Of a stretch of 55,118 bases of DNA, positions 22,713 through 43,925 are shown piece after piece (the stretch's first letter is position 1; each line of letters begins with the position of its first letter). Under the pieces are notes generated by a model. That model saw only the letters and a list, made by a program, of their open reading frames with translations. It ran no database searches and had not been told where the DNA came from. Location: the NCBI GenBank assembly GCA_003160215.1, contig PLQW01000234.1:1-55118 (forward strand), read 5' to 3'. Both the position numbers and the translations under genes were made by a program. The DNA comes from Acidobacteriaceae bacterium (lineage in GTDB: Bacteria > Acidobacteriota > Terriglobia > Terriglobales > Acidobacteriaceae).

Positions 22713-22808
22713 AACCACGGGTTTACACGGATGAGCACGGATCTAACAATAGTCTTTGAGGGCTTATCCTCAAAGACCTATCCGTGTCTATCCGTGAAAT
22801 CCGTGGTT
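22713..22808. repeat. CRCGGAT inverted-repeat element (copy A1)
   Basis: The left arm AACCACGGGTTTACACGGAT continues with a third CACGGAT; the right arm is its inverse and ends ATCCGTGGTT. Between the arms is a smaller perfect hairpin, GTCTTTGAGG / CCTCAAAGAC (22752-22777). Each arm has three CRCGGAT units spaced about ten bases apart. Sisters at 25298, 27843 and 31766. Confidence 0.85.
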
Positions 22809-25297: not shown

Positions 25298-25382
25298 AAC
25301 CGCAGATTGCGCGGAGGACGCGGATTGTCTCAGGGTTTCTTTCTTGCAGACTTATCCGCGAAATCCGTGTGAATCCGCGGTT
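25298..25382. repeat. CRCGGAT inverted-repeat element (copy A2)
   Basis: Left arm AACCGCAGATTGCGCGGAGG and right arm ending AATCCGCGGTT form an 85-base foldback between malate synthase and the DnaC-like gene. Same arm architecture as A1, A3 and A4, in the GC form (CGCGGAT). Confidence 0.8.
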
Positions 25383-26544: not shown

Positions 26545-26614
26545 GGCATCAGACTTAGCTTCTAGTTTTAGTTTCTCTGTGCCTCTGTGTCTCTGTGGTG
26601 GATAGAATGTCTTT

Positions 26615-27837: not shown

Positions 27838-28266
27838 TAATCAACCACGGATTGACACGGATTCCCACGGATTTTCTTTTGATCATTGTCCAGAAGCATC
27901 CGGCGAAACTGAGGACGGACGCCGAAGTTGAGCAATAGGCCGACTTCGAAGTCAGTGGTTTTGAGGTAATTTAACAATTGTGCTTCATGCATGCGGTCCA
28001 GAGTGCGCGCATTTGAGTTCTACAATGACTGTGTTCTGCACAAGGAGGTCGGTGCGGAACACTCCCACAACTTGCCCCCGAAATGTGACCTGACAAGCTT
28101 TCTCGCGATCAACGGATAGACCTTTCGACTGTAGAACAACACGCAGGGCATCCCGATACACCGACTCTAGAAACCCGTGCCCAAGCTCGTTGTAGACATC
28201 GTAGAAGCTGCCAATAATTGCCTCCGTAATGTCGGCGTATTTCAGCTTAGTGCCATCGTTCATCAT
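27838..28266 (-). pseudogene. GxxExxY-family protein with a one-base frameshift
   Basis: GxxExxY proteins are ~125 residues with a nuclease-like core. The N-terminal part reads ADITEAIIGSFYDVYNELGH, GFLESVYRDAL (the G-x2-E-x2-Y signature) and DLLVQNTVIVELK. After LK an extra T at 28011 shifts the frame to a premature stop at 27985. In the next frame the family's usual end follows: ARTLDRMHEAQLLNYLKTTD, then FEVGLLLNFG and RPQFRRMLLDN, finishing at 27838. The ATG at 28266 has a GAGGT ribosome site. The gene is bracketed by inverted CRCGGAT arms (27843-27873 and 28278-28310). Confidence 0.85.
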
Positions 28267-28310
28267 GAATACCTCAATCAATCCGTGTTCATCCGTGGAG
28301 ATCCGTGGTT
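27843..28310. mobile_element. Putative mobile unit: GxxExxY gene between CRCGGAT inverted arms (copy A3)
   Basis: Left arm AACCACGGATTGACACGGAT plus CCCACGGAT; right arm ATCCGTGTTCATCCGTGGAG and ATCCGTGGTT, its inverse. The same arms in A1, A2 and A4 enclose only 25-80 bases with no gene. A3 therefore looks like the gene-bearing version. No target-site duplication or transposase was identified, so mobility is inferred. Confidence 0.5.
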
Positions 28311-31765: not shown

Positions 31766-31907
31766 AACCGCGGATTGCACGGATAACGCGGATACGACTT
31801 AGAACGAAAAAGCCTTTTCGGTTTTTGCTAAGACCGTTGGTCTACTGAGAAAACGTTTCTTTGTTTACTTCATCCAGGTCCGCGTTCATCCGCGAAAATC
31901 CGCGGTT
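31766..31907. repeat. CRCGGAT inverted-repeat element between tldD and tldE (copy A4)
   Basis: Left arm AACCGCGGATTGCACGGATA plus CGCGGAT; right arm CCGCGTTCATCCGCGAAAAT then CCGCGGTT. The ~80-base interior contains a smaller foldback (AAAAAGCCTTTTCGGTTTTT). It interrupts what would otherwise be a compact operon. Confidence 0.8.
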
Positions 31908-43860: not shown

Positions 43861-43925
43861 ACACAGAGACACGGAGTTTTTTGTTTCTATTGAGTTTTCT
43901 CCGTGATCTCCGTGCCTCCGTGGTT
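43861..43925. repeat. ACACAGAGACACGGAG...CTCCGTGCCTCCGTGGTT inverted repeat
   Basis: 65-base foldback in the spacer between ACAD and ETF-QO genes. The right arm shares the CCGTGGTTAA end with the CRCGGAT family but uses CACGGAG units. A related right arm, CTCTGTGCCTCTGTGTCTCT, is at 26575-26598. Confidence 0.6.

Follow-up and report, generated by a model that had tools for sequence, protein, structure and literature searches.

Inverted heptamer-array arms around GxxExxY nuclease-like genes and their possible dispersal in bacterial and phage genomes

Foldback elements and GxxExxY genes of the source genome

The window, i.e. the whole stretch of 55,118 nt of an Acidobacteriaceae genome that was analysed, harbours four foldback elements at the coordinates of the original prediction, three of them empty and one enclosing a gene. 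The gene-bearing element 3 (27843..28310) consists of a GxxExxY gene between two inverted arms, each composed of three CACGGAT units with a spacing of 10,10, one on the plus strand at the 3' side of the gene (27846..27872) and one on the minus strand at its 5' side (28281..28307). The reading frame (TIGR04256/PF13366) is located on the minus strand (27915..28281) and is split near 28005 by a frameshift into the pieces 28003-28233 and 27915-28007, hence this copy is broken. The empty element 1 of the CACGGAT type (22713..22808) has its arms at about 22713-22742 (plus strand) and 22780-22808 (minus strand), the CRCGGAT-type element 2 (25298..25382; arms 25298-25325, plus, and 25354-25382, minus) is neighboured by a malate-synthase-like and an IstB-like gene, and element 4, also of the CRCGGAT type (31766..31907), lies between two PmbA/TldD-family genes. 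The predicted three units per arm are present in all four elements, though some are degenerate, namely CACGGGT (outer left unit of element 1), CGCAGAT and CGCGGAG (the first two units of element 2) and CGCGGAC (one unit in the right arm of element 4). Ten matches to CRCGGATTNNCRCGGAT with at most one mismatch were found in the window, compared to 0.09 expected, and nine of them fall within the four elements. As single-stranded DNA, the empty elements 1, 2 and 4 each fold better than 200 of 200 shuffles (z -10.0, -4.1 and -5.0, respectively), and the window has no Rfam match at gathering score.

Two additional features were absent from the initial list. A further empty element of the CACGGAG type (43862..43922) contains two exact matches to the unit regular expression (CACAGAG and CACGGAG) in its plus-strand arm and three CACGGAG units with spacing 8,9 in its minus-strand arm, and its unit is that of the two other resident GxxExxY genes (L001 and L002). 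A solitary minus-strand arm of three CACAGAG units with spacing 8,8 (26575..26597) is situated directly upstream of a uvrC-like gene. In total, three GxxExxY genes were detected in the source genome (94% complete), all of them inside inverted three-unit arms; the two outside the window have a matched frame without stop and CACGGAG arms with spacings of 8,9 and 9,9. Genome-wide, CRCGGATNNNCRCGGAT occurs 39 times while its reversed control does not occur at all.

In profile searches the window protein piece matches only TIGR04256 (84.3 bits) and PF13366 (86.3 bits), far above the curated cut-offs of 35 and 22, which establishes the enclosed gene as a member of the GxxExxY family, as had been predicted; these models (PF13366 is PDDEXK_3) bear a motif or superfamily name only. 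Among 74 proteins, Asp68, Glu78, Lys80, Asn109, Phe110, Gly118 and Arg121 are invariant and Gln92 and Tyr96 are conserved in at least 90%; the invariance of the LGPGLLExxY residues is in part built in, as the genome scan relied on this motif. The matched frame is free of stops in 78 of the 80 best matches. The structure was confidently predicted (pLDDT 96.4), and the best solved Foldseek match was 4ic1 (SSO0001, a Cas4 protein; probability 0.99, TM 0.57, E 0.033; none at E 0.001), with an alkaline exonuclease and the lambda exonuclease (6m9k) among the next ones. A sequence search for a solved relative gave none at E 1, and the PADLOC Cas4 profile matched two of three proteins weakly (best E 3.7e-4). 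The D..ExK..QxxxY signature is the motif of Cas4/RecB-type nucleases. Hence, the GxxExxY fold is predicted to resemble Cas4 and lambda exonuclease, with the D, ExK and QxxxY residues present. Cas4/RecB-type nucleases are thus among the nearest solved folds and share these residues; unlike them, GxxExxY proteins comprise only about 125 residues and are encoded inside their own repeat arms.

Association and covariation of arms and GxxExxY proteins

TIGR04256 proteins are encoded in 73 of 199 genomes from the window's phylum, frequently in multiple copies. The inverted-repeat score between the gene flanks exceeded all 620 shuffles at 27 of 31 loci and at none of 31 displaced positions, and three of the four failing loci are situated at contig ends. 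A scan of bacterial and archaeal genomes yielded at least 584 confirmed relatives, the best 80 of which come from many phyla by record title, including one Methanosarcinales locus with arms and one Methanothrix locus without visible arms. Among these best 80 loci, 57 beat all 800 shuffles (including a few inverted repeats of other kinds, e.g. at L239) compared to 1 of 61 displaced controls, and 70 have an inward run of at least two units on at least one side. With the fixed unit CRCNRAK, a regular expression derived from loci later counted with it, inward runs of at least three units on both sides were found at 69 of 145 loci, the wrong way round at 8 of 145, and at 0 of 124 displaced positions. 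An inward run of at least two units on at least one side is present at 115 of 145 loci compared to 8 of 124 displaced positions, and at 30 of 145 neither side has such a run; these counts exclude the duplicates L435-L437, L451 and L462 and set aside six loci with less than 200 nt of flank. Five of eight plasmid loci score at background, and L237 and L238 among these eight have no runs. The arm association first noticed in the window thus recurs around homologues elsewhere, with units that differ by locus.

Three units per arm are also the commonest number at the 106 clear-armed loci (72 left and 73 right arms), and the outer consensus adjoining the arms is TTMAC. The spacing of left and right arm agrees at 72 of 75 loci. 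Within an element, the two arms are 90% identical at variable unit positions and 52% identical in the spacers, compared to 62% and 40% between loci, which is as expected if a protein reads the units and indicates that full pairing of the arms is not what is kept. The approximately 10-base unit spacing, from which a helical phasing was suggested, holds for the window elements (9-10) and does not extend to the family, in which spacing is not strictly helical (8 in 120 cases, 9 in 169, 10 in 71 and 11 in 10, in a scan that permitted 8-11 only). At L291, L234 and L241, the GxxExxY gene has an apparently complete foldback pair on each side instead of one arm. On a Sphingomonas plasmid (L232, 1471-1899), a GxxExxY gene without recognisable arms lies between fabD and fabG and is perhaps a domesticated copy.

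The number of scattered arms also goes along with the gene. CACAGAG-type arms were found 988 times in the 73 gene-bearing genomes (reversed control 36) and 40 times in the 126 gene-less ones (control 5); at least three such arms occur in 40 of 73 compared to 3 of 126 genomes (Fisher p 2.4e-18). Thirty of the 40 arms in gene-less genomes belong to G030, G118 (16 arms) and G127, whose genera include gene carriers. In G172, 117 arms accompany a single gene. For six genomes with CACAGAG gene arms, the spacing of the resident gene recurs in 102 of the 109 other arms listed, compared to a permutation mean of 28.3, and the four of 720 permutations that reach the observed value all swap equal patterns. 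In this test, the CACAGAG-unit gene served as reference in genomes with several genes, the eight arms that lay at this gene or close to it were left aside, overlapping matches made two longer arms count twice, and three arms of G074 adjoin GxxExxY fragments; the list is complete for G038, G149 and G032 and comprises 20 of 41 arms in G051, 20 of 22 in G105 and 14 of 54 in G074. All 23 close arm pairs in the six genomes are convergent. The CACAGAG arm spacing mismatches the gene arms readable in G121 and G173. In G197 and G025, two listed close pairs each show reversed polarity with the units outward (e.g. L366 of G025, 1001-1451).

Unit similarity tracks protein similarity among 105 proteins (Mantel r 0.395, reached by 0 of 1000 permutations), a set from which the window protein was excluded because of its frameshift. 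At unit position 7, a T is associated with Phe in LGPGF (14 of 16) and a G with Leu (86 of 89), a correlation that is non-significant over independent changes (4 pairs). At position 5, A rather than G goes with the absence of a Thr near residue 8, a protein column that was selected after a scan; among nine independent pairs, a mean of 7.5 changed in the same way and 0 (1 in some pairings) in the opposite way, with a median p of 0.016 (range 0.004-0.125). For the whole unit, at least 55 changes were counted on the tree. Five genomes contain G- and T-type units together, where the T-type protein has Phe in five of five cases and the G-type protein Leu in four and Met in one, hence base composition is not the whole cause of the correlation. 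The window protein combines Phe with a T-type unit, as predicted from the covariation. Collectively, unit and spacing appear to be specific to each gene lineage, which, as judged from the sequences, favours GxxExxY as the cognate recognition protein.

Polymorphic sites, phage arms and insertion sequence passengers

Elements 2 and 4 of the window are missing at the orthologous places in readable congeneric genomes. Element 2 is not at its site in G203, G199, G205 and G204, and a degenerate arm-like stretch was found in G206; element 4 is not at its site in any of the nine genomes read. In seven congeneric genomes uvrC is followed by another right-hand neighbour, and element 3 was not found there. 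Only two genomes, from other genera, retain both neighbours of element 3, one with a half-element remnant (G209) and one with no arm (G211). Comparison with related genomes thus yielded the empty sites anticipated for an inserted element, though no consistent target duplication: one of constant length was found neither in the congeneric orthologues of the window, nor in genus g41, nor in phage contigs. A transposition intermediate was not seen.

A site in genus g41, bounded by genes that are presumably sufD and sufS, could be read in 35 of 41 congeneric genomes, with regions above 520 nt read at both ends only. Seven genomes carry a GxxExxY element there, among them G268, the gene of which ends early. 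The G283 allele is an internal-deletion derivative in which the left arm and the beginning of the gene are preserved. In G173 an empty pair is located between flanks that are 88-92% identical to the gene-bearing G149, arm pairs of other units occupy the site in G114 and G282, some genomes show remnants, and nothing was found in G181, G105 and G267 among others. The gene copies at this site differ by a dN of 0.13-0.26, while dS is saturated in 20 of 21 pairs and the single ratio is 0.094. Genome G149 also contains solitary arms at gene junctions, one of which, by reading, is the coded end of the upstream gene. The suggestion that empty elements are non-autonomous, MITE-like derivatives is supported by the deletion derivative of G283 and by the empty pairs at a gene-bearing site, though the interiors are unshared, since 0 of 55 pairs among 11 empty elements beat shuffles.

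Arms were also found in viral contigs, in at least 120 stretches and in another 68. The 187 viral-contig loci, which were chosen for having arms, contain 350 elements, 264 of them solitary, while the reversed sequence gave 2 runs. One of these contigs (L596) encodes portal, head protease, major head and tape-measure proteins. At four phage sites, arm-bearing and arm-less alleles share their flanks, with the best pairs 90-98% identical at three sites. The short direct repeats AAAAGA, GGGAGG and AAC beside three of these indels have no constant length. At the L597 site a gain of the arm is favoured because the out-group contigs are without it; the arm-less L579 is nested among the carriers, hence this contig may have recombined or lost its arm. 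The two arm-less contigs at the L596 site do not adjoin each other in the tree, so the change could run either way. A search with one query protein found GxxExxY in 8 of 72,556 plasmid records and 0 of 50,697 phage records, and a strict peptide pattern found it in 1 viral contig.

High copy numbers of the gene itself have another origin. In G097, 27 near-identical truncated GxxExxY elements (L161-L187) lie directly behind a transposase stop, and the identity goes beyond the arms, running into the end of the transposase-like frame and up to a shared right end. All 40 scored matches in the genome to the end of this insertion sequence (IS), which presumably resembles the IS5 family, reach the arm junction. 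In G236, seven near-identical IS copies (L212-L218) with a different transposase-like end contain a GxxExxY gene and an upstream foldback. High copy as proof of mobility was therefore ruled out, because the copies in both genomes are IS passengers and provide no evidence for self-mobility.

Possible mechanism, alternatives and related systems

The covariation of arms and proteins makes it very probable that GxxExxY reads the arms, as far as sequence comparisons can tell, and it is rather likely that it disperses them as well. Regarding the original view of GxxExxY as enzyme or passenger of an undescribed element, the association stands and the outcomes of the checks proposed for refuting it were mostly favourable, while a role as mobilising enzyme instead of a cognate passenger, with DNA binding, cleavage and arm moving, is what we infer. 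The protein would be a PD-(D/E)XK nuclease of about 125 residues with a RecB/Cas4/lambda-exonuclease fold, which would recognise an array, usually of three, of a 7-bp unit (approximately CRCNRAK) with gaps of 1-3 bp and with roughly TTMAC in front of the array on its outer side. Two such arrays, inverted relative to each other, would enclose the gene and give rise to a foldback. The nuclease would act at the arms, probably while these are extruded into hairpins or cruciforms. Subsequent repair or re-ligation could then spread single arms as well as DNA bounded by arms in trans, frequently to intergenic sites. Gene-less pairs might be products of internal deletion or separate copies, with the gene-bearing element as the autonomous form.

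Several observations could be explained otherwise. Small nucleases often home, and the gene might have homed into the loops of pre-existing target hairpins that are spread by other means. The gene-bearing and empty alleles at one site and the large excess of gene-less arms in genomes such as G172 would fit this possibility, yet the G283 allele with its left arm and gene start represents gene loss rather than a virgin target, and neither the spacing of the resident gene in scattered arms nor the single arms in phage DNA are explained, so that homing appears rather unlikely. Similarly, GxxExxY might be a resident, non-selfish repair or recombination nuclease whose arrays multiply by recombination and selection. 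Such domesticated sites are in line with the open frames and the conservation of catalytic residues across many phyla, with the dN of 0.13-0.26 and saturated dS at one site (though the G268 copy ends early) and with the rarity of the gene in plasmid and phage records. However, the patchy distribution within one phylum (73 of 199 genomes), families with different units within one genome and the presence or absence of arms among phages whose flanks are up to 98% identical make this explanation unlikely.

A further possibility is that another enzyme, for example a Y1_Tnp protein of the RAYT or IS200 type, moves the arms and GxxExxY only rides inside. Y1_Tnp genes are present in 125 of 199 genomes, and among the gene-bearing ones at least three arms are commoner with Y1_Tnp (34 of 54) than without (6 of 19, p 0.03). 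However, this effect is absent in genomes lacking GxxExxY (2 of 71 compared to 1 of 55, p 1.0), whereas the GxxExxY effect is seen with and without Y1_Tnp (p 2.6e-14 and 8.6e-4), and unit and spacing track the GxxExxY gene. Y1_Tnp, the sole transposase type compared, is therefore disfavoured as arm mover, and a mere passenger role of GxxExxY is very improbable. Finally, the paired arms could serve as transcript hairpins, i.e. as terminators or stabilisers, with an incidental gene. The good single-strand folding of the empty window elements and the position of many elements between neighbouring genes point in this direction, but solitary arms, which are common (264 of 350 viral-contig elements), are unable to form such hairpins, and the low agreement of the spacers between arms speaks against it; such an RNA function seems hardly credible.

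Dispersal of the arms by GxxExxY would resemble the REP/REPIN-RAYT systems. PMC3116915 describes short extragenic repeats of high copy number that occur as singlets or as inverted, hairpin-forming doublets, and groups of REPs that go with particular RAYT enzymes of the Y1 HUH type, and the title of PMC3733652 mentions a GTAG/CGTC-type tag at the REP ends. Scattered inverted doublets and singlets and an enzyme gene flanked by its own repeat type are common to both, and in the elements read the arms are extragenic as well. In contrast, the enzyme here belongs to the PD-(D/E)XK and not to the Y1 HUH type (PF01797), and an arm usually comprises three 7-bp units in tandem instead of a single palindrome. 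The GxxExxY system is not a REPIN/RAYT member, because its enzyme is not Y1 and the presence of Y1_Tnp fails to explain the arms; that it is REPIN/RAYT-like and driven by an unrelated PD-(D/E)XK nuclease is nevertheless reasonably probable. MITEs of IS elements are short non-autonomous inverted-repeat elements that represent internal-deletion derivatives. The arm family likewise includes short inverted-repeat elements and internal-deletion derivatives, but it has no classical transposase inside, its arms are unit arrays, no consistent target duplication was found and the interiors are unshared.

Taken in its full extent, the reading is about evenly balanced between right and wrong: the arms would form a widespread, previously undescribed class of dispersed repeats that a minimal Cas4-like nuclease mobilises in trans, reading arrays of heptamers (usually three) with an evolvable recognition code, exemplified by Thr or Ser/Ala near residue 8 against G or A at unit position 5, and its range would cover many bacterial phyla, at least one archaeon and tailed-phage genomes. 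It would provide a likely role for a large nuclease family that bears only a motif name and would account for the abundant CTCTGTGTCTCTGTGGT-kind repeats in the genomes searched. If true, single-gene enzymes dedicated to repeat dispersal evolved twice, the second time on a Cas4-related nuclease fold, and the natural variation of unit and protein offers a directly testable recognition code.

In the open-licence PMC literature no description of the arm-GxxExxY system was found. The passages mentioning GxxExxY have no bearing on repeats, the terms PDDEXK_3, foldback and REP/PDDEXK gave no papers, and the single passage on PF13366 concerns algae. The arm strings gave no relevant paper and one primer pair, for the invertible-promoter region of BF2782 in B. 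fragilis, which contains a CTCTGTG..CTCTGTG word (PMC3090145). This match is incidental as arm literature, though an arm may adjoin the BF2782 invertible promoter.
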